Part shown: piece by piece, positions 17,081 through 29,119 of the stretch
Numbering within the stretch: position 1 is the stretch's first letter
How the letters are laid out: the number at the start of each line of letters is the position of its first letter
Assembly: GCF_020480685.1 (NCBI RefSeq)
Contig: NZ_JAJAFU010000024.1
Coordinates: forward strand, 1-35,703
Length of the DNA: 35,703 nucleotides
Direction of reading: 5' to 3'
Source of the DNA: Deferrivibrio essentukiensis
GTDB taxonomy: Bacteria; Chrysiogenota; Deferribacteres; Deferribacterales; Deferrivibrionaceae
Notes under the pieces: generated by a model
The model's input: the letters and a program-made list of their open reading frames with translations, nothing else
The model's database searches: none
What the model was told of the DNA's origin: nothing
Program-made: the position numbers and the translations under genes

Positions 17081-18364
17081 TTACCTTATGGGAAAAAGAG
17101 GATTTTTCCCGGATAAATATGCATCTTTTATACGGTTAAGGTCATAGCCTAAAAAGGCGGACAAAAGTACGCATTGATTTAAATATGTAGTTTTCAAAGC
17201 TCCATACTTTTTCCATCTTCTACCAGAGGTTTGCAGATATTCATCAGTGCAGGCTATTTTTCCACAACTTTTAGCCTTTTTAACAAAAAACAAATCCTCC
17301 ATGATTGGAACATCAGGGAAAGAGCCCAACTTAAAAAAGTCATTCTTTCTGATGAAAAACCCTTGATCTCCATATGGTTTTTTAAACAGATTAGCTCTGA
17401 TATTTGTTCCAAACTCAATAATCTTTTTCCCCGTAAAATCTTCCGATATTTTAAATTTAAAAAAACCAAGCAATACTTGCTTCTTCACAATAGTTTCCCT
17501 TATACAAACATCCCAATTATCCGGTAAAACTGAATCTGAATGCAAAAATAGCAAGATTTCACCAGTTGAAATTTTTACTCCTTTATTCATCTGTAATGCT
17601 CTTCCGGGCTTAGATTTAACTACAATCACCCCTAAATCAAGTGCTTTTTTTACAGTATTATCACTACTTCCCCCATCGACTACAATTGTCTCTACATTAA
17701 AGCCTTCATTAGTTTGTTGAATAACTTTTTCAATGTTATCTTCTTCGTTTAAAGTGGGAATAATAACGGAAATTTTTTTAGGGATATCCTCAAATTCATC
17801 AACATCATTTAATTCTTTGAGTAATTTATAATCTTTAATCTTACTAATAGTCTGATTTAATACTTTTTCACTCCCCCAGTCTATGTTTTCAAAAAGCTTT
17901 GGATTAGGCTTATTTAAACCAATTAAATAATAACCACCATCTTTGGCAGGTCCAATCACGCAGTTATTTTTTTCAAGAGATTGAAATGCTTTTAAAATTA
18001 AATCAGCTCTCAAATCAGGGCAATCACTTCCGATTATAACAATCTTGCTAAATCCACTTTTAAAGCCTTCTTCAAAGGCATTTTTCATTTTCTCCCCTAA
18101 ATCATTATCAACTTGCTCAGAATATTCAATACTACTCCCAAGCCAATTTTCCATATCAGCTTTTGTACCGCCAAAATATTTAATTTTAAAAGGGATTTTG
18201 GTTTTTTTAACCTGAGAAACTACAAATTCAGTCATCATCTTTTGCAGATTTGCAGCATTAATAGCGCCAATTTTAGGAATTAGACGAGTTTTTGCCTTGC
18301 CGGGGACAGGATATCGGGTAAAAATTATAATAAGTGAGTCATTTTGTTCAGCAAATAAAGTCAT
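17081..18364 (-). CDS. Fused double glycosyltransferase (TIGR04282 + TIGR04283 type)
   Basis: The 427-residue protein joins two enzymes that are usually separate. Residues 10-195 form a DUF2064/TIGR04282-like nucleotidyl- or glycosyltransferase domain with RYPVPGKAKTRL (17-28) and GSDCPDL (112-118). Residues 198-427 form a GT2-type domain of the TIGR04283 group with IIPTLNEEDNI (201-211), VDGGSSDNT (229-237) and a late RRWKKYGALKTT. Both families are named for co-occurrence with arsenosugar-type or radical SAM/selenodomain clusters, where they are thought to build or transfer the sugar part. It is the last gene of the operon led by the DUF547 gene, overlapping the flavoprotein gene by four bases. 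The fusion supports sequential action of the two domains. Confidence 0.8.
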   Translation of the reverse strand: MTLFAEQNDSLIIIFTRYPVPGKAKTRLIPKIGAINAANLQKMMTEFVVSQVKKTKIPFKIKYFGGTKADMENWLGSSIEYSEQVDNDLGEKMKNAFEEGFKSGFSKIVIIGSDCPDLRADLILKAFQSLEKNNCVIGPAKDGGYYLIGLNKPNPKLFENIDWGSEKVLNQTISKIKDYKLLKELNDVDEFEDIPKKISVIIPTLNEEDNIEKVIQQTNEGFNVETIVVDGGSSDNTVKKALDLGVIVVKSKPGRALQMNKGVKISTGEILLFLHSDSVLPDNWDVCIRETIVKKQVLLGFFKFKISEDFTGKKIIEFGTNIRANLFKKPYGDQGFFIRKNDFFKLGSFPDVPIMEDLFFVKKAKSCGKIACTDEYLQTSGRRWKKYGALKTTYLNQCVLLSAFLGYDLNRIKDAYLSGKNPLFPIR

Positions 18365-19887
18365 CTTCTTTGAAACTTAAACCACCATTTTAAAATCTTT
18401 GCAACTCTTGGTGTAAGTCTACTTTTATTATATAGACCTGACACACGTTTTATAGCTTCACTCTGAGTAGGATAAGGGTGTATTACATTTGCAAGCTTTC
18501 CAAGTCCGATATTATTAACAATTGCGATAGTAAATTCATTAATCATTTCACCTGCATGTGCTGCAACAATAGTTGCCCCTAAAATTTTGTCAGTCCCTTT
18601 TTTGACCATTACCTTAACAAAACCTATTGTTTCTCCGTCAGCCTGAGCCCTGTCATTTTCATTCATATCAAATTTGAAATGCTCAACCTCAATCCCTTGA
18701 CTTACAGCCTCTTCTTTATACATTCCCACATGAGCAACTTCAGGGTCAGTATAAGTGCACCAGGGCATAACAAGAGAGCTTAAACGTTTTCTCCCTTTAA
18801 AAAGGGCATTTTGTATCACAATCTGAGCTGCTGCATCTGCCGCATGAGTAAATTTCCATTTCATACAACAATCCCCTGCAGCATAAATATTTTTATTTGT
18901 AGTTTGTAAATAATCGTTAACCTTAACCCCTTCCCTTAAATCATAATCCACATTAACCATATCAAGATTCAGCCCTTCCACATTTGGAGCTCTCCCCGCA
19001 GCAGCAAGGATTTCATCAATTTCAATATTTTTTGAGCTACTTCCATCTACAGTTTGAACAGTGACTAACTTTTTACCGTTTTCTAATAGTTTTACTTCAG
19101 CTACTTTTGAGTTAGTTAAAATCTCAACGCCATCATTTTTTAAAACATCTTCTATTATTGATGCTGCTTCAATATCCTCTCTTGGTAAAATTCTTGAATG
19201 TTGAACAATTGTCACTTTTGCTCCAAATCTTTTAAAAGATTGAGCAAGCTCACATCCGATAGGGCCTCCACCAATTACAAGAAGATGTCCGGGAAGTTTT
19301 TGAAGATTAAAAATATTTTCGTTTGTCAGATACCCACTTTCTTTTAACCCCGGTATATTTGGAGCTACAGCTCTTGCCCCTGTGGCGATAACGGCTTTTT
19401 TAAATTTTAAAATCTTTCCATCAACTTCAATTGAATTATCTCCGACAAAGTGCCCTTTTCCTAAAAATACATTTACGCCAAGCTCAGAATACCTTTTTAC
19501 AGAATCGTTATGGCTTATGTCTGCCCTTATCTTTCTCATCCTTTCCATTATTTTTTCAAAATCTAAACTTGAGAAAGTATGGTTTTCAAAACCATACTTT
19601 TCGGCATTTTTTATTATATGTGCCACCCTTGCTGATTTAATAATACTTTTTGAAGGGACACAGCCAACATTCAGACAATCGCCGCCCATCAAATCTTTTT
19701 CCACAAGAGCCACTTTCCCGCCCAATGAGGCAGTTATTATCGCACTTATAAGCCCCGCAGTACCAGCACCCAAAACAACAAGATTATAAATTGGCTCAGG
19801 TTCAGGATTCACCCAGTCTTTTGGATGAACATTGCTCAAAAGTTTTTCATTATAAATATCTTTTGGTGATAGATTAAGGCTGCTCAT
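18361..19887 (-). CDS. Mercuric-reductase-like FAD/NAD(P) disulfide oxidoreductase
   Basis: The 508-residue class I flavoprotein has an N-terminal extension of about 33 residues, then GAGTAG (40-45) for FAD and the redox pair in CLNVGC (Cys71, Cys76). The NAD(P) fold follows (VIGGGPIGCELAQ), and the dimerisation domain ends with HPYPTQSE, where His and Glu form the usual catalytic dyad. There is no N-terminal heavy-metal domain and no C-terminal Cys pair, both expected in a true MerA, so mercury reduction is unlikely. Close relatives usually sit beside TVP38/DedA genes, as here, and their substrate is unknown; a small disulfide or an arsenic-bound thiol is possible. Only two bases separate it from the TVP38 gene. 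Confidence 0.8.
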   Translation of the reverse strand: MSSLNLSPKDIYNEKLLSNVHPKDWVNPEPEPIYNLVVLGAGTAGLISAIITASLGGKVALVEKDLMGGDCLNVGCVPSKSIIKSARVAHIIKNAEKYGFENHTFSSLDFEKIMERMRKIRADISHNDSVKRYSELGVNVFLGKGHFVGDNSIEVDGKILKFKKAVIATGARAVAPNIPGLKESGYLTNENIFNLQKLPGHLLVIGGGPIGCELAQSFKRFGAKVTIVQHSRILPREDIEAASIIEDVLKNDGVEILTNSKVAEVKLLENGKKLVTVQTVDGSSSKNIEIDEILAAAGRAPNVEGLNLDMVNVDYDLREGVKVNDYLQTTNKNIYAAGDCCMKWKFTHAADAAAQIVIQNALFKGRKRLSSLVMPWCTYTDPEVAHVGMYKEEAVSQGIEVEHFKFDMNENDRAQADGETIGFVKVMVKKGTDKILGATIVAAHAGEMINEFTIAIVNNIGLGKLANVIHPYPTQSEAIKRVSGLYNKSRLTPRVAKILKWWFKFQRR

Positions 19888-19889
19888 AT

Positions 19890-20543
19890 TTATTCCTTAA
19901 TTTTACTCTTTGCTTTTTTGACAAGCAAAAATAGGATTGCAAATATCAGTAATACCACAGCTACAAGCACCCAGGGGATTTTACCTTCCCTGATTGCAGT
20001 AGTTACAGCATCCGTCCCAACTACATAAAGGACTGTCCCGGGCAGCATACATATAAAAGACCAAAAGACGTACGTCATAAAAGGTACTTTTGTAAGTCCG
20101 AAACCATAGTTAAGGAGATTAAAAGGGAAAAGCGGAACAAGCCTTGTAATAGCTACAATTATTGCTCCATTTTTCTCAGTCATATCATCTAATTTTTTAA
20201 ACTTTTCACTTTTTGACAAAAGTGATACTACAAAATCCCTTGCAAAATATCTTGAAATCAGAAAGCACAGCGATGCGCCAATGGTTGCTCCAAATATAAC
20301 CGTCACAACCCCTACAATCGAGCCAAAAATCGCTCCTGCCATTATGGTCAACGCAGAACCCGGGATTGCCATCACTGTTGCTAAGGCATAAACTCCCATA
20401 AAAATAATAGGTCCTAAAGCTCCTTTTGAGGCAACCCACTCTCTAAAATCACCAAACTTTTCTGAAAGCCCATAATATTTACCGGCAAAAACAAGCAATA
20501 AAATAATCAGTGTGGCAAGCAGTAGCTTTAGATATTTTTTCAT
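19890..20543 (-). CDS. TVP38/TMEM64 (DedA-like) membrane protein
   Basis: The 217-residue protein has about five or six membrane spans: one at 5-22, a group from 45 to 120, two from 150 to 175 and one near 188-208, followed by a basic tail (KKAKSKIKE). The motif GPIIFMGVYALATVMAIPGSALTIMAGAIFG is cut here to its key parts: an IPG turn near 60-62 and a GxxxG-rich stretch near 72-90. A second loop has FPFNLLNYGFGLT (138-150). These are hallmarks of the VTT domain family, now linked to lipid flipping across membranes. It is sandwiched between the methyltransferase fusion and the flavoprotein with gaps of zero and two bases. Confidence 0.85.
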   Translation of the reverse strand: MKKYLKLLLATLIILLLVFAGKYYGLSEKFGDFREWVASKGALGPIIFMGVYALATVMAIPGSALTIMAGAIFGSIVGVVTVIFGATIGASLCFLISRYFARDFVVSLLSKSEKFKKLDDMTEKNGAIIVAITRLVPLFPFNLLNYGFGLTKVPFMTYVFWSFICMLPGTVLYVVGTDAVTTAIREGKIPWVLVAVVLLIFAILFLLVKKAKSKIKE

Positions 20544-22568
20544 TTAACAACCACAGGCATTTTTCGGTTCATCATTATTTTGTTTATCATCACCACAATC
20601 AAATAGCCCATAATGGATTGAACGGTCACCAAACACTTTAAAATGTTTTGCGTATCTTGTTTGAGATAGCATTGATGCTGTATTGCCACATACTAGCATT
20701 GGTTTGCCTTTTTCAAATATATGATGGTCATCTAAAATAAAAGAATTAGGCTCTTCTGTTATTGTGCCGAGATAAGTGGCAACCTGCCCATAATCTTCAC
20801 ATTTATCTTCTAAATCATCTATTTTAAATACCCTTACTGTTTGGGAATAAAGTTTTGCCAATCCTACCTTTTGCTTTATTTCTTGATTTGTTATTTCTAT
20901 CTCTCTCGATGAAACAACTCTTACGTCAGGATAGCCAAGCTTTGTTACAGCTCTTCTGAAATCTTCAATATAAAAAGCTCCAGCTATACATTCTCCTATA
21001 AGCACAGGGTCTGTTTTTAATTCTTCAGGGATTCTTCTTGACGCAAACACATCAGAGAAATAGAGTTCACCGCCTGGTTTTAAAACCCTAAAAATTTCTT
21101 TTAGAAGTTTTGATTTATCAAAGGAAAGGTTTACCACACAATTTGATATCACTATATCTACTGAATTATCCTCTATACCTAATTTATCAAGCTCTTCAAT
21201 ATAACCTTTTTTAAACTCGATATTAGGTTTTTTAAAACCAAATTTTTCAGTCATTACATCTATATATTTTTTAGCCACATCAAGCTGCTCATCAGTCATA
21301 TCAATGCCGATTACTCTGCCATTTTCGCCCACAAGTTTAGAAAGAATATATGCGTCTCTTCCTGTGCCACAACCAAGGTCAATTACTGTGCAACCTTCTA
21401 CTGCCAGAGGAATCGGAGAGCCACACCCATAAAATTTATCCAAAATCTCCTCTTCAATATCCAAAAGTATACTTTTTACATAGTCAGGAACCGACTCGGT
21501 AGAGCAACAAGCTGATGTTTTTAAATCATATTTTGTCTTTAAAACCTTACCATAGTACTCTTTTATATCATCTTTATTCACAGCTGCTTCTTTCGTAATC
21601 ATACCTTCCTCTCTTTGCTTTTTGGCTATTTTACTGCTTAATTGACTACACAACACCCCATCAGAATAGCATATAAAACATCTATGATGCTTAAGAGATA
21701 CTTTTGCCTGCATTGCCTCTTTAAGTGTGCTGCCCAAATCATATTGTTCGTCATCATCTACCAAAGTGCATGCATAGACACTTACTTTACCATCTTTTTT
21801 CAAAACCATTTTGCTGTAACTACACATTAAATTTTCTATCTCTTCATCACTTTTGGTGGAATAAAGCTGGGCTTTTGTTATTTCAGGTACTTTTACTTCA
21901 GCATTTGGTCGCTTTAAATCCACAAAAGATACAATTTCCATTGTTTCAAGTAGTCCTGACTGATTAAAAAGTTTCACAAAGTTTTCATTTATATGCGAAG
22001 TAGATTCATTTGCTGCAGACTGACAGGCAACTGATACGTTAAAGCCAATTTCATGCAATTTTTTCAATAATTCAAGAGAAAGCCTGAATTTATCAGCCCC
22101 CCTATTTTTATCGTGCAGTGCCTCGTCATAAGAATCAAGGCTTATTCTAAAAGTTAATTTATAAGGTTTGTTGACAAAAGATTTAATCTTGTCTAAATTT
22201 TTAAGTAGTGGTTCAGTAGCATTTGTCAAAACCAGACAATCCTTGAAATTAAGCGCATAGTCAAGTATCTTAATAAACTCTTTATTTACAAAAGGTTCAC
22301 CACCGGTAAAAGAAAACCTTTCTACACCTATCTCCAACGCTTCCTCTATAAAAGGTTTAATATCAGAAAGTGTCAGCTGCTCTATCCTGTTGTTGTTGGG
22401 TGATGAGCCTTCAAAGCAAAATGGACACCTCAAATTACAAATTGTTCCCGTGTGAAACCAGAGCTCTTTTAACTTAGCCGGTTTTACGTATGCCCTCATC
22501 TCCCCATTTTCAGTAAAATTCCAGCTATAGTCTTTTAAGCGATGTTTCTCATTTAAAATTTCCTGCAT
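20544..22568 (-). CDS. Radical SAM / arsenite methyltransferase (ArsM-type) fusion
   Basis: The 674-residue protein carries two modules. Residues 30-310 are a radical SAM domain with CNLRCPFC (Cys44, Cys48, Cys51), TGGEP at 88-92 and a SPASM/twitch-like tail with Cys249, Cys267, Cys297, Cys300 and Cys307. Residues 345-674 are an ArsM of the arsenosugar type: Cys354 and Cys355, the SAM motif DLGCGTGRD (397-405), SNCVVNLS (475-482) with Cys477, RVLKPGGELYFSD and GECIAGAFY with Cys527. A C-terminal extension (EDYGQVATYLGTI, VCGNTASML) follows, as found in arsenosugar-type ArsM. It should methylate arsenite and may add a carbon group by radical chemistry. It is not ArsS. Ribosome site GGAGG precedes ATG. 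It is followed with no gap by the TVP38 gene. Confidence 0.85.
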   Translation of the reverse strand: MQEILNEKHRLKDYSWNFTENGEMRAYVKPAKLKELWFHTGTICNLRCPFCFEGSSPNNNRIEQLTLSDIKPFIEEALEIGVERFSFTGGEPFVNKEFIKILDYALNFKDCLVLTNATEPLLKNLDKIKSFVNKPYKLTFRISLDSYDEALHDKNRGADKFRLSLELLKKLHEIGFNVSVACQSAANESTSHINENFVKLFNQSGLLETMEIVSFVDLKRPNAEVKVPEITKAQLYSTKSDEEIENLMCSYSKMVLKKDGKVSVYACTLVDDDEQYDLGSTLKEAMQAKVSLKHHRCFICYSDGVLCSQLSSKIAKKQREEGMITKEAAVNKDDIKEYYGKVLKTKYDLKTSACCSTESVPDYVKSILLDIEEEILDKFYGCGSPIPLAVEGCTVIDLGCGTGRDAYILSKLVGENGRVIGIDMTDEQLDVAKKYIDVMTEKFGFKKPNIEFKKGYIEELDKLGIEDNSVDIVISNCVVNLSFDKSKLLKEIFRVLKPGGELYFSDVFASRRIPEELKTDPVLIGECIAGAFYIEDFRRAVTKLGYPDVRVVSSREIEITNQEIKQKVGLAKLYSQTVRVFKIDDLEDKCEDYGQVATYLGTITEEPNSFILDDHHIFEKGKPMLVCGNTASMLSQTRYAKHFKVFGDRSIHYGLFDCGDDKQNNDEPKNACGC

Positions 22569-22591
22569 CTTACCTCCAAAACAAACCGTCC

Positions 22592-23320
22592 TTACTTCTC
22601 ATTTAAGCTCCAGTCATACTTTATCCATTTTTTATTAAAATTTTTTATATCTATTAAAGAATATTTTTTAATAAAATCATCTATCGAGTTAAAATCTTCA
22701 CTGTACCATTTAAATATTGAGGACAAAAATACCGTATTTTTTTCATAGTCCACCACCATTCCATAGTTTGACTGTAAATATTCTTGTACTTGCTCAGTAA
22801 GCTGTGCATCAAGCTTCTCCCCTGTATAGGCTTCGAAGCGAAGCGGGGGACACCCTTTTGCAGCACATACAAGGGCAAAATGAATTCGTGGTTCATTAAA
22901 CTCTTTTCGAATAATATCGTGCTCAAGGTTATCAAGAGAAATTTTATTACCAAACAGTTTGACAACCTTTTTATCCCATGGACCGCTAAAAATATTACCG
23001 ATATCCTTTATCGATTCCACCGGGTAATTATCAATGATTAACTGTAAGGTTGCAGCATTGTAAAAGTTAATCAAAAAGGCAAGTTTTGCGTGGTTGTCCC
23101 ATTTATTGTATGTATTCAAATCAACATTAGAGAGCGTTTTTAGATATTCATCAAGCAAGTATCTATCTTTTTTCAAACTTTTATAATCTACCAATCCACT
23201 ATTGACATATCTTTTGAGCAAAATATCGTATTTTTGGTGCAAACTATTTTCCGATGAAAACCCATTTACTGCAATCAAGAATACACTCAAAAAAAATATA
23301 AACCTCGGCAACCACTTCAT
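22592..23320 (-). CDS. Exported DUF547 protein
   Basis: The 242-residue protein begins MKWLPRFIFFLSVFLIAVNGFSS, a clear signal peptide with likely cleavage near residue 21-23. The DUF547 domain covers most of the rest, with AFLINFYNAATL, SIKDIGNIFSGPWD, LEHDIIRKEF and PRIHFALVCAAKGCPPL as its conserved blocks. The His and Cys residues of the last block could bind a metal, but no activity is established. It leads the arsenic-type operon, 23 bases before the radical SAM fusion, and DUF547 genes are known companions of such clusters. The start at 23320 is chosen over a longer frame because it gives the signal peptide and lies six bases after a TATAAT box. Confidence 0.82.
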   Translation of the reverse strand: MKWLPRFIFFLSVFLIAVNGFSSENSLHQKYDILLKRYVNSGLVDYKSLKKDRYLLDEYLKTLSNVDLNTYNKWDNHAKLAFLINFYNAATLQLIIDNYPVESIKDIGNIFSGPWDKKVVKLFGNKISLDNLEHDIIRKEFNEPRIHFALVCAAKGCPPLRFEAYTGEKLDAQLTEQVQEYLQSNYGMVVDYEKNTVFLSSIFKWYSEDFNSIDDFIKKYSLIDIKNFNKKWIKYDWSLNEK

Positions 23321-23376: not shown

Positions 23377-23417
23377 TTGTAGAATATTCTCCAATACCTT
23401 TGCAGAATATTCTACAA
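23377..23417. promoter_or_regulatory. Two copies of an 18-bp palindrome, probable enhancer sites
   Basis: Sites at 23377-23394 and 23400-23417 both fit TTGnAGAATATTCTnCAA, with a perfectly palindromic core and outer arms, and centres 23 bases apart. They lie about 110 and 87 bases upstream of the predicted start of the sigma-54 promoter for the plus-strand operon, the normal distance for an NtrC-type activator. They also lie just upstream of the -35 box of the divergent DUF547 operon. Confidence 0.7.
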
Positions 23418-23467
23418 TATTTAGAATCAATTTCAAATAAATATCAATACACCAACGATTTATAATT

Positions 23468-23484
23468 TTGGCAAAGAGATTGCT
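23468..23484 (+). promoter_or_regulatory. Sigma-54 (-24/-12) promoter
   Basis: TTGGCA at 23468-23473 and TTGCT at 23480-23484 place GG and GC exactly ten bases apart, fitting the TGGCAcg-N4-TTGCw consensus except for the two bases after TGGCA. The start of transcription would be near 23495, giving a leader of about 20 bases that holds the ribosome site. A sigma-70 reading (TTGGCA, 17 bases, TAAAAA) is weaker. Confidence 0.65.
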
Positions 23485-23514
23485 TAATATTAAAAAAAAT
23501 CGTGAGGTGAGTTT

Positions 23515-23940
23515 ATGAAAAAACTTTTTTTAGGACTAATTGCTTTAATTTTTCTTGCAGGTTGCCAGAGTGGCAAATATGAAAAAGTAAAAGCGGAAAA
23601 TGGAATCGTTAAAATACCCGTTTCCAAAGTAAGTGACGGTAATATTCACTACTATGAATATGATAACAATGGCAAACCTGTTAAATTTTTTGTATTGCAA
23701 AGCAATGACAGGACCATAAGAGCAGCTTTTGATGCTTGCGACGTATGCTATCCGGAAAAAAAAGGGTATCGTCAGGAAGGTGATTTTGTAATTTGTAATA
23801 ATTGCGGGCAAAGATTTCACGAATCAAAGATAAATGTGCAAAAAGGTGGTTGCAATCCAGCACCATTAAACAGAAGTGTAAATGGTAGCTTTCTTGAAAT
23901 ACAAGTTGCCGACATTAAAAAAGGCTCATTCTATTTTTAG
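23515..23940 (+). CDS. DUF2318 Fe-S-like lipoprotein
   Basis: The 141-residue protein has a lipoprotein signal peptide with lipobox LAGC (acylated Cys17). The DUF2318 domain has AFDACDVC (Cys75, Cys78), ICNNCGQRFH (Cys94, Cys97, His102) and GGC (Cys113), proposed to bind a metal or cluster outside the cytoplasm. In other bacteria DUF2318 proteins accompany P19/FTR1-type iron uptake genes; in Campylobacter jejuni such a protein lies beside FtsX-like permeases and an ATPase. Here neither P19 nor FTR1 is seen. A strong GAGGTGAG ribosome site precedes ATG. It is the first gene of a five-gene operon and may shuttle electrons or metal to the permease. Confidence 0.8.
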   Translation: MKKLFLGLIALIFLAGCQSGKYEKVKAENGIVKIPVSKVSDGNIHYYEYDNNGKPVKFFVLQSNDRTIRAAFDACDVCYPEKKGYRQEGDFVICNNCGQRFHESKINVQKGGCNPAPLNRSVNGSFLEIQVADIKKGSFYF

Positions 23941-23949
23941 GGTAAAAAT

Positions 23950-25110
23950 ATGAATATTTTTACGATTCCGTTTAAAAACCTGAAGGTAAAGTTTTTTAAA
24001 ACAGCTATTTTAATATTCGTATTTGCAATAGGCATTACTTCTTCTGTCGCACTTAACAAAGTCTCTTCCACAGTTTCAGAAGCTCTGGAAGAAAAGATGA
24101 ATAAATTTGGTGCGAACATACTTGTGTACCCGAAAACGGATGAGATAAATATTTCTTACGGCGGGGTACAGCTTGGAAATTTGTCTTACGAGGTTAAATA
24201 CCTTCCTGAAACTGATGTTGTAGAAAAAATAAGAAACATTGAGTTTAATAAAAACATAAGTGCTGTAGCTCCAAAACTAGTAAAAGCAGCTAAATTAGAA
24301 GATAAATTGGTAGGCGTAGTTGGTATCGTCCCACAAGAAGAGATAAAAATAAAAAGCTACTGGAATATTTCAGGAAAAATGATTGAAAGGGGAGATGAAG
24401 TAATTATAGGTTCAAATATTGCCAAAAAACTTAATAAAAATATGGGTGATAAAATACAGCTTTATGACAGCAATTTTACAATCTCAGGTGTAATTGAAAG
24501 TACCGGTTCTGAAGAGGATAATCTTATTTTTGCTAACCTGCACCAATTGCAAAACCTCACAGGTGAAACCAATAAAATTAACTTTGTCGAAGTATCAGCG
24601 CTTTGTGCAGGGTGTCCTATTGAAGACATAGTCAATCAAATTAAAGTCGCCATTCCAGATTCAGAAATCAATGCCGTCCAGAAACTTGTAAAACAAAGAA
24701 TGTCCGCAGTACACTTTGTTGAAAAACTCGCTGCTATTTTAAGTGGAGTAATTATTTTTATTGCATGCTTTATGCTTGCTATATTTATGCTCTCTTCCGT
24801 TACAGAAAGGAAAAAAGAGATCGGCATATTAAGAGCGGTGGGATATTCCAAGTCAAATATATTTATAATTTTTATTACCGAGGCTCTCTTAATAGGTATA
24901 ATGTCAGGTCTGGTTGGTTATACAAGCGGATATTTTTTAAGTTTCAAAATACTTGATATTCTGCACATTGAAGCTGGAAAAATAACATTCAGTTTCCTGG
25001 AAAGTGTCCTGGTTGTTATTGCTGTTGGCTTAATTGCCATAATCTCATCAAGTCTACCAGCAGCAAAAGCAGCAAAAATAACTCCGTCTGAAGCACTTAT
25101 TGCATTATAA
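23950..25110 (+). CDS. FtsX/MacB-type ABC transporter permease
   Basis: The 386-residue protein has the MacB/LolC plan: one N-terminal membrane span (about 18-36), a large extracytoplasmic domain (about 40-258), then three spans (about 263-284, 305-330, 350-372). Between the second and third spans lies ERKKEIGILRAVGYSKSNI, the coupling segment that meets the ATPase, and the end has AAKAAKITPSEAL, typical of FtsX-like permeases. The extracytoplasmic part contains CAGC, an unusual Cys pair that could touch metal or the DUF2318 lipoprotein. Such permeases often do mechanical work and do not move a solute. It starts nine bases after the lipoprotein gene. Confidence 0.85.
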   Translation: MNIFTIPFKNLKVKFFKTAILIFVFAIGITSSVALNKVSSTVSEALEEKMNKFGANILVYPKTDEINISYGGVQLGNLSYEVKYLPETDVVEKIRNIEFNKNISAVAPKLVKAAKLEDKLVGVVGIVPQEEIKIKSYWNISGKMIERGDEVIIGSNIAKKLNKNMGDKIQLYDSNFTISGVIESTGSEEDNLIFANLHQLQNLTGETNKINFVEVSALCAGCPIEDIVNQIKVAIPDSEINAVQKLVKQRMSAVHFVEKLAAILSGVIIFIACFMLAIFMLSSVTERKKEIGILRAVGYSKSNIFIIFITEALLIGIMSGLVGYTSGYFLSFKILDILHIEAGKITFSFLESVLVVIAVGLIAIISSSLPAAKAAKITPSEALIAL

Positions 25111-25122
25111 AAGAGGTATAAT

Positions 25123-25788
25123 ATGTTAAGTACAGAAAATCTAAATAAATTTTACTATAACGGAAAAATTGAAACACATGTCTTAAAAGATTTGACCCTT
25201 GAAATTGATGCGGGGGAATTTGTAGCCATTTTAGGTAAATCCGGCTCAGGCAAAAGTACACTATTAAACATCCTGTCAACACTTATGAAAGCTGATTCTG
25301 GCAAAATATGTTATAATGACATTAACTACTTCGATGTAAAGGAAAAAGAGTTGAACAAACTGAGAAATGAGGAATTTTCTGTTATCTTTCAGTTTCACTA
25401 TCTTATCCCATATCTGACTGCACTTGAAAATGTACTTTTACCTTGCTCAAAAAGTTTTACACCGGTAAAAAAAGAAGATATTGAGTATGCAAAAGAGTGT
25501 CTTGACAAAGTAGGCTTGAACGGAAAGTACGACAGACTGCCAAATCAGCTTTCGGGTGGTGAGCAGCAAAGAGTGGCAATAGCAAGGGCGCTTATAAAAA
25601 AGCCAAAGGTGATTTTTGCTGACGAACCTACAGGGAACCTTGATGCTGAAAACAGTATGATTGTAGCAAATATTTTCAAGCAACTTAACAATGAAGGTTA
25701 CACTATATTGATGGTAACACACGATAAAAGTATGGCTGACTTTGCAGAAAGGATAATTACAATGAAGGATGGGCAGATTGTCAATTAA
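25123..25788 (+). CDS. LolD/MacB-type ABC transporter ATPase
   Basis: The 221-residue protein is a complete single ABC ATPase: Walker A GKSGSGKST (about 38-46), a Q-loop in VIFQFHYLIPYLTALENV, the signature LSGGEQQR, Walker B VIFADEPTGNLD and a switch His in MVTHD. The sequence groups with LolD/MacB/YknY-like enzymes that pair with FtsX-type permeases. An AAGAGG ribosome site lies before ATG, 12 bases after the permease gene. Its 3' end overlaps the kinase gene by 20 bases, so transport and sensing parts are made together. Confidence 0.92.
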   Translation: MLSTENLNKFYYNGKIETHVLKDLTLEIDAGEFVAILGKSGSGKSTLLNILSTLMKADSGKICYNDINYFDVKEKELNKLRNEEFSVIFQFHYLIPYLTALENVLLPCSKSFTPVKKEDIEYAKECLDKVGLNGKYDRLPNQLSGGEQQRVAIARALIKKPKVIFADEPTGNLDAENSMIVANIFKQLNNEGYTILMVTHDKSMADFAERIITMKDGQIVN

Positions 25789-26890
25789 AAATTATTATAT
25801 TCCCGGCAATAAATTTGTCGGGATTTTTTCTCTTATTTTCTTCCTTGTAATAATGTTTTTTCATCACACCACCCCTTCGGATTTCAGTATAATTCACATA
25901 GTTCATTACTACATGCTCTACATAATTGTCATAATAATGGCAATGAATTACGGACTTATTGGCGGGATATTGGCTTCATTTGTAATTACCATATCTTATG
26001 CCCCCAACATTTATTTTAACATATTTGAGCTCAAACACTATCATTTGCGAAGCTTTGTGGAAGTTTTGATGATGTATACACTTGGTATATTTGCAGCATT
26101 TTATTCCCAAAAACTTTATCTTGAAAAAATAAAAGTTCAAAATGCCTATAAAAAGCTGGAAGCAGCGACAGAAGAAAAAATTAGAATGGAAAAGGAATTT
26201 GCCAAATCTGAAAAACTCAGGGCGTTAGGTCAGTTATCTGCAGGTATAGCACATGAAATAAGAAATCCGCTTGCATCTTTAAAATCTGCAGCAAAACTAA
26301 TCAAAAGTGGAAAAAATATAGAACAGCTTACAGATATTCTTGTTACAGAAATTGACAGACTTAACAGTTTTATTGAAAGATTCTTACAATATGCAAGATT
26401 TGGAAGGATTGAAAATAAAAATATATTCATCAAAAATTTTTATATGGAGCTTCTTGAATGGCTTAAACTCGCCACAAAATCTACCAATGAAAATATAAAA
26501 ATAATAGAAAATTATCAATGTGACGAAAACGCACAAATAAAAGGGGATATCAATAATTTAAAACAGGCATTTATCAATATCTTTTTAAACAGTGTTGAAG
26601 AATTGAAAAGCAACAATTCCGATAGAAAAATCATCGAATTTGCTGTAAATTGCGAGGATGAAAAGATTATCTTTTGCATAAAAGACAATGGAAGAGGTAT
26701 CTCTGAAAATATCAAAGAAAAAATTTTTGAGCCTTTTTTTACCACAAAAGAATCAGGCTCAGGATTAGGTTTGACAATAACTTCAAAGATAATTAGTGAA
26801 CACGAAGGGGATTTAAAGATATCAAATAATAACGGAGCACAATTTACTATTTCTTTAAAGAAGGCAACAGATGAAGATACTGCTTGTTGA
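25769..26890 (+). CDS. Membrane histidine kinase, NtrB-like
   Basis: The 373-residue kinase has four predicted membrane spans in the first 113 residues (about 17-32, 43-59, 62-82, 94-113) with very short outside loops, so it probably senses within the membrane or through the neighbouring transporter. A coiled linker (114-150) leads to the H-box LSAGIAHEIRNPL with phosphoacceptor His162. The ATP-binding domain has N-box NIFLNSVEEL, DNGRGIS and GSGLGLT. The kinase core resembles NtrB/HydH/AtoS-type partners of sigma-54 activators, which agrees with the next gene. It overlaps the regulator gene by 20 bases. Confidence 0.9.
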   Translation: MGRLSIKNYYIPGNKFVGIFSLIFFLVIMFFHHTTPSDFSIIHIVHYYMLYIIVIIMAMNYGLIGGILASFVITISYAPNIYFNIFELKHYHLRSFVEVLMMYTLGIFAAFYSQKLYLEKIKVQNAYKKLEAATEEKIRMEKEFAKSEKLRALGQLSAGIAHEIRNPLASLKSAAKLIKSGKNIEQLTDILVTEIDRLNSFIERFLQYARFGRIENKNIFIKNFYMELLEWLKLATKSTNENIKIIENYQCDENAQIKGDINNLKQAFINIFLNSVEELKSNNSDRKIIEFAVNCEDEKIIFCIKDNGRGISENIKEKIFEPFFTTKESGSGLGLTITSKIISEHEGDLKISNNNGAQFTISLKKATDEDTAC

Positions 26891-28199
26891 AGATAATGAA
26901 ACCCTTGCAACCCTTATCAAAATCATGCTTGAAGATGAAGGGTTTGAAATTGAGCATCTAAATCGTGGTGATAAAGCATTAGAGCTTTTAAAAAAAGAAA
27001 GCTTTGACATTATTATTACCGACATAAAATTACCCGGCTCAAGCGGGCATGATATTTTGGATTTCTCTATTAAAAATCAGTTAGGTTCAATCGTAATAAT
27101 AATAACCGCCTATGGAAATATAGCTGATGCGGTAAATGCCATCAAGTCAGGAGCTTACGACTACATTCCAAAGCCGTTTGAAAATGAAGTATTAGTCAAT
27201 ACAGTAAAAAAGGCAGCAAAATTCAAAACTATTGAGAATGAAAATATTCAGCTTAAAGATTTTGTAAAAAGCTCTCTAAAACCAAACATTATCGGCAGTA
27301 GCGTAAAGCTAAAAAGTGTAATGGAATTAATAGAAAAAGTCGCACAAACTGATGCACCGGTATTGTTCTTAGGGGAAAGTGGTACAGGGAAAGAGTTATT
27401 TGCAAAGCAACTTCACTTTATCAGTAATCGTAGCAGCAAACCCTTCGTGACAGTAAACTGTGCAGCTATCCCTGAAAATCTTTTTGAAAGTGAACTTTTT
27501 GGGCATAAAAAAGGAGCTTTTACCGGGGCGGACAAAGATAAGACAGGGAAAATAAAATCTGCAAACAAAGGTACACTTTTCTTAGATGAAATTGGGGAGC
27601 TACCATTTGAGACACAAGCAAAACTTCTCCGCTTTTTACAGGAAGGGGAGATACAGCCGGTAGGGGGAAATTTTGCTGAAAAAGTTGATGTAAGGATTGT
27701 AGCTGCCACAAATAAAGATTTAAAAACATTGGTAGAGCAAGGCAAATTCAGAGAAGACCTATATTACAGGCTAAATATTTTCCCCATCAATATCCCGTCA
27801 CTTCGCGAAAGAAGTGAAGATATTCATGAGCTTGCCGCATATTTCTTACAAAAATATGGATACAAACATATAAAACTCGATGATAAAACATTAGATAAAT
27901 TGAAAAATTACGACTGGCCTGGGAATGTCAGAGAGCTTGAAAACACTATTTACAGAATGGCAATCTTGTCAAAAGGGGAAAAACTAAATACAGACTTTTT
28001 TATGGGCAGTAGAGGGAATGTAAAATCCTGCCTTTTGCTTGAGCTTCCTGAGGATAATTTTGATATTATCGATTTTGAAAAAAATATAATTTTAAAGGCT
28101 CTTGAAAAATTTAATTGGAACAAGAAAAAGACTGCGGAATATCTGTGTATCCCAAGACATGTGCTGCTTTATAGAATGGAGAAGTATAAACTACACTGA
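26871..28199 (+). CDS. NtrC-family sigma-54-dependent response regulator
   Basis: The 442-residue protein has a receiver domain (1-120) with Asp51 as the phosphorylation site and conserved Lys101. The AAA+ domain (about 138-365) has Walker A GESGTGKE (168-175), the sigma-54 contact loop GAFTGA (215-220) and Walker B GTLFLDEIGE. A Fis-type helix-turn-helix lies at about 403-440. All key residues are intact, so it should activate sigma-54 promoters after phosphorylation by the kinase encoded just upstream. A sigma-54 promoter and paired palindromes lie before the first gene of this same operon, so autoregulation is likely. It is the last gene of the operon. Confidence 0.93.
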   Translation: MKILLVEDNETLATLIKIMLEDEGFEIEHLNRGDKALELLKKESFDIIITDIKLPGSSGHDILDFSIKNQLGSIVIIITAYGNIADAVNAIKSGAYDYIPKPFENEVLVNTVKKAAKFKTIENENIQLKDFVKSSLKPNIIGSSVKLKSVMELIEKVAQTDAPVLFLGESGTGKELFAKQLHFISNRSSKPFVTVNCAAIPENLFESELFGHKKGAFTGADKDKTGKIKSANKGTLFLDEIGELPFETQAKLLRFLQEGEIQPVGGNFAEKVDVRIVAATNKDLKTLVEQGKFREDLYYRLNIFPINIPSLRERSEDIHELAAYFLQKYGYKHIKLDDKTLDKLKNYDWPGNVRELENTIYRMAILSKGEKLNTDFFMGSRGNVKSCLLLELPEDNFDIIDFEKNIILKALEKFNWNKKKTAEYLCIPRHVLLYRMEKYKLH

Positions 28200-28263: not shown

Positions 28264-28680
28264 CTATAATTCAACTCCAAGAGCCTTTTTAACAATCATT
28301 TCAATCTCTTTAGCCCAGTCTATGGCCTGTTGCGCCTCTTCTGTTGAGTATTCCTCAGAAGGTATCCAATCTTCCATGCCATAAAAGGAAAGTTCCCTTT
28401 CTTTGCGTAATCTTCTTGAAATATCTTTTAAACGTTCAAGATTATCATTTACTACCTGAGGAAAAACTTCTTTATTCATCTCTATGTATCTTGAAACATC
28501 ATGAACTTTAGGCACTTCTATTCCAAATGCTATTATAAGTGCTTTCAAGAGAAGTTCTACAACCTCCTGAGCCTCTCTGACCACATCAGCATAAGATTCT
28601 TCAGATTTTAAAAACTCCAAAGCCTTTATCCTTTTTTGTGCCCTAAAAATATAATCATCTACTAATCTCATCCTTTGCAT
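28264..28680 (-). CDS. HEPN-domain protein
   Basis: The 138-residue all-helical protein has the HEPN plan: a helix with FRAQKRIKALEFL, a second with VVREAQEVVELLLKALI, a VPKVHDVSRYI turn and a last helix starting YSTEEAQQAIDWA. HEPN RNase toxins normally carry R-x4-6-H; at the matching place this protein has RKERELSFYG without His, so RNase activity is doubtful. It overlaps the nucleotidyltransferase gene by 26 bases, the usual MNT/HEPN pair arrangement (type VII toxin-antitoxin when active). The start at 28680 has GGAG eight bases upstream; Met4 is an alternative. Confidence 0.8.
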   Translation of the reverse strand: MQRMRLVDDYIFRAQKRIKALEFLKSEESYADVVREAQEVVELLLKALIIAFGIEVPKVHDVSRYIEMNKEVFPQVVNDNLERLKDISRRLRKERELSFYGMEDWIPSEEYSTEEAQQAIDWAKEIEMIVKKALGVEL

Positions 28681-29119
28681 ATAATATTCTCCAGTATTTT
28701 TTGGGATAAGAGTGCTCTAAAATTTCACCATTATCTATCTTTTCTTTTATCACACTAACCACTTTGTTTATTAAACCAGCCTTATCATATAGGGTAATAT
28801 AATTTTCAAAAATCCCTAAATAAAATGAATGAAACACATCCAAATCTTCTACTGTTAAGACTATTGGGCTAAGAAAATGCTCTTCGAAATAATACCCGAT
28901 TTTTTTGTAAAACTCATCTATTCTTTTTTTAAAAGTAATATTACTTTTATTGAGTACAATTAAAATGTCTATATCAGAATATGTTGCGAAATCACCCCTT
29001 GCTACTGAGCCAAAGAGTACTGCGGCCATAAGATCATTACCGTAAGCTTTTTTTAAAAGCTCAAGTAAATAGTCTTTTTTTTCTATGAGATTCTTTTGAA
29101 AAAAAGTTTGTAACGTCAT
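28655..29119 (-). CDS. mntA: MNT-type minimal nucleotidyltransferase
   Basis: The 154-residue protein has the minimal nucleotidyltransferase motif GSVARGDFATYSDIDILIV, with Gly-Ser and the paired Asp residues of the active site. In characterised MNT/HEPN pairs this protein adds AMP to the HEPN toxin and silences it. It is also possible that the pair has another role, because the HEPN partner here lacks the expected catalytic His. A GAGGTGA ribosome site lies about eleven bases before ATG. The upstream gap to the exporter gene holds 7-base repeats. Confidence 0.85.
   Translation of the reverse strand: MTLQTFFQKNLIEKKDYLLELLKKAYGNDLMAAVLFGSVARGDFATYSDIDILIVLNKSNITFKKRIDEFYKKIGYYFEEHFLSPIVLTVEDLDVFHSFYLGIFENYITLYDKAGLINKVVSVIKEKIDNGEILEHSYPKKYWRILYAKDEISR

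Follow-up and report, generated by a model that had tools for sequence, protein, structure and literature searches.

The window, by which we mean the whole 35,703-nucleotide stretch that was analyzed, contains an intergenic region from which two sets of genes diverge, so that regulatory elements within it could in principle serve either side. To the left lies a DUF547/arsenosugar-type operon that begins at 23320, and to the right a tight operon (intergenic gaps of 9, 12, -20 and -20 nt) whose last two genes encode a histidine kinase and an NtrC-family response regulator. The features are as follows.

17081-23320, minus strand: divergent operon (DUF547, radical-SAM/ArsM-like fusion, TVP38-type, MerA-like reductase, arsenosugar-type glycosyltransferase)
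23377-23394, no strand assigned: distal palindrome TTGTAGAATATTCTCCAA, predicted activator site 1; exact match, pair conserved at ten orthologous operons
23400-23417, no strand assigned: proximal palindrome TTGCAGAATATTCTACAA, predicted activator site 2; exact match, core placed 65-66 nt ahead of the -24 GG in the ten genomes
23470-23483, plus strand: predicted -24/-12 (sigma-54) promoter GGCAAAGAGATTGC; sole GG-N10-GC between the sites and ftrD, conserved
23515-23940, plus strand: FtrD-like (DUF2318) lipoprotein carrying the motifs CDVC and CNNC; match to PF10080 at E 4.6e-33, with a lipoprotein signal
23950-25110, plus strand: MacB/LolC-type ABC permease (PF12704, PF02687)
25123-25788, plus strand: LolD-type ABC ATPase (PF00005)
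25769-26890, plus strand: histidine kinase (HisKA, HATPase_c), its N-terminal ~110 residues forming a membrane sensor
26871-28199, plus strand: NtrC-family response regulator (receiver, AAA+ with GAFTGA, Fis-type HTH)
28152-28175, plus strand: codons of the recognition-helix signature PRHVLLYR, common to all palindrome-linked regulators found

The regulator carries PF00072, PF00158 and PF02954, with GAFTGA at residue 215 and the Walker A motif GESGTGKE at residue 168, and these domains agree with an earlier note on this DNA, which had placed a kinase and a regulator with an intact GAFTGA loop at the end of the operon. This architecture, together with the palindromic sites and -24/-12 promoter upstream, assigns the protein by sequence to the NtrC family, which has at least 28 matches in the source genome. 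The rpoN gene is present in the source genome and in 20 relatives examined, one relative giving a partial match below the cut-off. Elsewhere in the window, the divergent operon encodes a radical-SAM/ArsM-like fusion of 674 residues and a glycosyltransferase in which TIGR04282 and TIGR04283 are joined, and two small overlapping genes on the minus strand at 28264-29119, between the regulator and an MFS transporter, resemble a HEPN/MNT toxin-antitoxin pair by appearance only and have no counterpart at the corresponding loci of G001 and G002.

TTGTAGAATATTCTCCAA and TTGCAGAATATTCTACAA are both exact matches to TTGNAGAATATTCTNCAA, and their centres lie 23 bp apart, the distance that had been noted earlier; TTGnAGAATATTCTnCAA has exactly these two copies in the window. 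The well-spaced -24/-12 promoter proposed in the earlier note was recovered as TGGCAaagagatTTGC, the only GG-N10-GC element between the palindromes and ftrD, with its GG at 23470, its GC ending at 23483 and ftrD next at 23515. From this position a transcript start is expected near 23494, which places the palindrome centres near -108 and -86, in line with earlier estimates of about 110 and 87 bases. Allowing up to three mismatches, TTGNAGAATATTCTNCAA matches the window four times, against a mean of 0.86 in shuffled sequence and with four or more matches in 0 of 100 shuffles. No further exact copy of the palindrome was found in the 2.36 Mb genome, where a single pair of AGAATANTCT cores with a separation of 8-38 bp was found and the reversed control pattern gave none. 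Copies with one mismatch do occur elsewhere, at least one of them within coding sequence; the site G000:C9:41611 was rejected as a regulon member on that ground. In the spacer between sites and promoter, one exact and two 8-of-9 matches to an IHF site share a common offset in G002, G040 and G032, with nothing convincing outside these three genomes.

Conservation within the Deferribacterales was assessed on 60 genomes, in 14 of which the regulator has a clear orthologue, with identities of 52-92% in the relatives. The pair and the -24/-12 element lie upstream of the orthologous FtrD-ABC-kinase-regulator operon in ten genomes, once per genome, so that the pair is present in 10 of the 14 genomes with an orthologue and in 0 of the 46 without (10/0/4/46; Fisher p 1.3e-8, relatedness ignored). 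Of the 60 genomes, 12 contain the pair pattern and one contains its reversed control; ten of the twelve matches are those at the orthologous operons, and the remaining two (G004 and G011), which have a 37-bp gap and lie off the operon, were left out for their irregular geometry and distance from it. The centres are 23 bp apart in G000-G002 and 33 bp apart in G014, G027, G032, G034, G036, G038 and G040, spacings that differ by one helical turn, and in every one of the ten genomes 66 or 65 nt separate the start of the proximal core from the -24 GG. In G001 and G002, BLAST similarity resumes at window position 23378, inside the first palindrome, beyond a flank of only 52-56% identity. An eleventh, decayed operon (G018) has the pair at a spacing of 22 and a -24/-12-like element before a broken ftrD. 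The search of orthologous operons that the earlier note recommended thus yielded the pair and promoter in fixed geometry at ten operons and at a decayed eleventh, and the lack of conservation it had named as counter-evidence was not found.

Several relatives depart from this arrangement. The ABC genes have decayed in G004 and G011 while the kinase and regulator are intact and in frame, and G004 has two degraded palindrome copies at the old place; the regulator in these genomes may have outlived its original operon. An exact palindrome and -24/-12 element precede a gene for a secreted Met/Gly/His-rich protein in G004, and an exact palindrome with a TGGCA-type element precedes a different operon in G009, from which we conclude that the retained regulator probably serves other targets. 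G010 has both regulator and operon, with the helix PRHKLIYR in place of PRHVLLYR, and the palindrome pair was not found upstream of its operon. Scans for a palindrome plus -24/-12 element returned the known operons and then mostly scattered single matches, the G004 site being the one clear addition.

We also recorded four observations on these loci. Decay of ftrD and ABC genes is seen at L037, L038 and L070 (G011, G004 and G018, respectively). A palindrome with a -24/-12-like element precedes small secreted Met/His-rich proteins at L071 1504-2105 (G004:C4) and L047 10434-10876 (G010); their C-terminal parts are alike and have no Pfam match, and they are a possible second regulon member. At L064 1400-1700 (G009:C9) the exact palindrome has a degenerate second copy upstream, and the second gene of the operon resembles a cytochrome c maturation gene. 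Finally, window positions 19801-20400 and 23701-25800 are 96-100% identical to L036 (G002) in two patches that include most of ftrD, the permease and the ATPase, in congeners that are otherwise 60-80% identical nearby; the pattern suggests that genes were exchanged recently or that the assembly is a mosaic.

Beyond the order, we scanned GTDB species genomes with a DNA-only pattern of two cores 11-24 bp apart that contained no protein information, obtaining at least 117 loci. Among the matches listed, the pair occurs in Thermodesulfobacteriota, Calditrichota, Chlorobiota, Krumholzibacteriota and others, the core gaps cluster at 11-13 (64 of 117 loci), and two outer-arm bases to the left of the core, a T and a G outside the search pattern, are also conserved (0.89 and 0.86). 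At L090, L098, L172 and L175 (Sumerlaeota-type), the same cores are separated by a 20-bp gap with an extra TTCTACA half-site in between, possibly a third site arrangement. Linked regulators were defined as NtrC-family genes scoring above 100 bits against the window regulator, on the same stretch as a pair and outside the Deferribacterales (at least 16 loci). The recognition helix PRHxL(I/L)YR was found in 16 of 16 linked regulators among the matches listed, all of them with the C-terminal pattern [IV]PRH[VTI]L[IL]YR..K, and in 0 of 16 control activators drawn from relatives and outgroups of the source genome, which have other helices such as ISRRTLHSK. The PRH regulators cluster in a single supported group (100/97), within which one control (ITRPTLIYR) also falls, and the window regulator shares the features of this clade, having both the PRHxL(I/L)YR helix and paired AGAATANTCT sites nearby. 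In a second order, comprising 116 genomes, site and helix are again associated (23 with both, 2 with site alone, 26 with helix alone, 65 with neither; Fisher p 8e-9, relatedness ignored); the strict pair is absent from 26 of the 49 helix-bearing genomes, and one of the two genomes with site alone, G163, shows a truncated match to the helix next to its site.

On this combined evidence we consider it highly probable that the regulator whose gene closes the operon uses the paired palindromes as its upstream activating sequence; the best reading is a sigma-54 autoregulatory circuit for metal stress in the envelope. The earlier suggestion that the palindrome is the enhancer of the operon's own activator is thereby supported by sequence conservation and by the cross-phylum association of site and helix. 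In the proposed circuit, the membrane kinase would sense a metal-related signal in the envelope and phosphorylate the regulator, which would occupy the two adjacent palindromes from the same side of the helix and oligomerize. By DNA looping it would then contact sigma-54 polymerase at the -24/-12 promoter and open it, and the resulting increase in FtrD-like lipoprotein, ABC transporter and the kinase-regulator pair would amount to positive autoregulation. Regulator binding, sigma-54 dependence, autoregulation and the signal are all features that we infer from sequence.

The nature of the signal is suggested by the genes that adjoin or lie downstream of the sites elsewhere. These encode an outer-membrane efflux protein, CusB with a heavy-metal-binding domain and a CusA/CzcA RND pump; an HMA protein, a YHS protein, a YtkA-like protein, and FtrD with an ABC transporter of the same type also occur beside sites. 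Among the matches listed, the site-regulator pairing thus extends beyond what the earlier note described, spanning several phyla and accompanying heavy-metal efflux genes there. Since the same site stands beside CusA/CusB-type efflux and heavy-metal-associated genes in other phyla, we favor a response to metal stress; given the Cus-like targets, excess copper or silver would be our guess, and only a guess, at the likeliest signal for the source organism. The FtrD/ABC genes themselves could point to a signal other than metal excess, as a DUF2318 protein, FetA, works together with an ABC transporter when iron is limiting in the Campylobacter Fet cluster, which is concerned with iron uptake (PMC10783030). 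It is accordingly conceivable, though on balance unlikely, that the circuit operates as proposed but answers to iron limitation or envelope redox stress as for that cluster; the absence of FetM and FetP genes from the operon argues against this, as do the CusA/CusB-type, HMA and YHS neighbors of the site.

A different objection concerns the identity of the activator. Physical linkage is by itself no proof of cognate binding, and with some 28 sigma-54 activators in the genome the site might serve another of them, or several related ones, with the operon's own regulator acting elsewhere. We regard this as very improbable, however, because the site is associated across phyla with one helix signature, which is what supports its assignment to the operon's own regulator, and because the PRH helix is absent from the sampled other activators of relatives. 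It is likewise most doubtful that a different regulator binds the palindromes as the operator of the divergent operon. The distal palindrome is just 57 bp from the DUF547 start, a minus-strand sigma-70-like element overlaps the proximal one, and the divergent operon is retained in G001 and G002; in the seven genomes with a spacing of 33, however, the pair stays with ftrD and the -24/-12 element while the divergent arsenosugar operon was not found beside it, the distance of the sites to the -24 element is fixed, and the sites are linked to NtrC-family genes in other phyla. We therefore rejected the divergent operon as the main target, the site and promoter remaining with ftrD where it was not found. 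Chance palindromes, which the AT-rich region and the one-mismatch copies elsewhere might suggest, are a negligible prospect, since the geometry is conserved, the site recurs across phyla and the control counts are close to zero.

Returning to the autoregulatory circuit, its sensor is the ~110-residue N-terminal region of the kinase, for which no Pfam model scored above cut-off (MASE1 and DUF4118 were sub-threshold). In a 13-row alignment of the kinases beside these regulators, His32, His43, Gly62, Gly65, Gly66 and Pro79 do not vary, and Pro36, Tyr51 and Glu98 are almost as strictly conserved; one close relative excepted, the aligned sensors are 17-34% identical to the window kinase. The AlphaFold model of the sensor is all-helical (pLDDT 86.5) and has no fold match in the PDB; in it His32 sits close to where the first long helix ends, and His43 close to where the second begins. 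We hypothesize that a metal site may lie near the outer membrane face.

More tentatively, and with somewhat less than an even chance of being right, these results may outline a widespread, undescribed class of sigma-54 two-component systems for periplasmic copper or silver stress, in which the sensor would bind metal via His32, His43 and Glu98 and a PRH-helix regulator would read one nearly invariant site across several phyla. If so, the regulon could be read directly from DNA. The analysis as a whole provides a DNA code for one multi-phylum clade of NtrC-family regulators and a probable metal-stress role for otherwise generic pairs of sigma-54 regulator and histidine kinase; it ties poorly understood FtrD-like/ABC genes to metal efflux via a common site, and it draws attention to a sensor region outside current Pfam assignments with conserved His and Glu residues.

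The sigma-54 regulons of Desulfovibrio vulgaris are described as many and small, with mostly palindromic sites tied to -24/-12 promoters (PMC4641369, PMC3333781), and in so far as the text of these reports conveys them they resemble the arrangement in the window. The running text of the same two papers, motif logos aside, contains neither the AGAATATTCT motif nor a copper or efflux regulon (PMC4641369, PMC3333781). The text of a report on the Geobacter RpoN regulon makes no mention of efflux, copper or the motif, and open-licence articles containing the motif string appear unrelated by title and abstract. As the earlier note had surmised, the pairing of this regulator with this site may be undescribed, judging by the text of the open-licence literature, motif logos aside.

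The mechanism itself, of the NtrC/ZraSR type, is classical. ZraSR (HydHG) of E. coli and Salmonella is a metal-responsive sigma-54 two-component system with paired enhancer sites and positive autoregulation that responds to zinc and lead. The window system resembles it in combining a kinase with an NtrC-family regulator, the latter matching the ZraR model and the ZraR structure 1ojl, but its scores fall well short of the curated cut-offs (regulator, 350.8 against 760 bits for ZraR; kinase, 147.6 against 479 for ZraS). It also differs from ZraSR in its sensor and in its targets (FtrD-ABC, with Cus-type efflux in other phyla, where ZraSR has ZraP), and the ZraR site is not known to match the window palindrome. 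In the copper two-component systems CusRS/CopRS, a membrane kinase controls CusCBA-type efflux, and Cus-type efflux likewise lies beside PRH-linked sites in other phyla; CusR-type regulators, however, belong to the OmpR family and act at sigma-70 promoters, whereas the window regulator is of the NtrC family and its operon has a -24/-12 promoter. With the Fet system of Campylobacter jejuni (fetMP-fetABCDEF) the operon shares a DUF2318 protein and an ABC transporter (PMC10783030), but it has no FetM, FetP, second permease or thioredoxin genes and thus falls outside that system, and where Campylobacter jejuni has a Fur site, the window has a predicted sigma-54 circuit.
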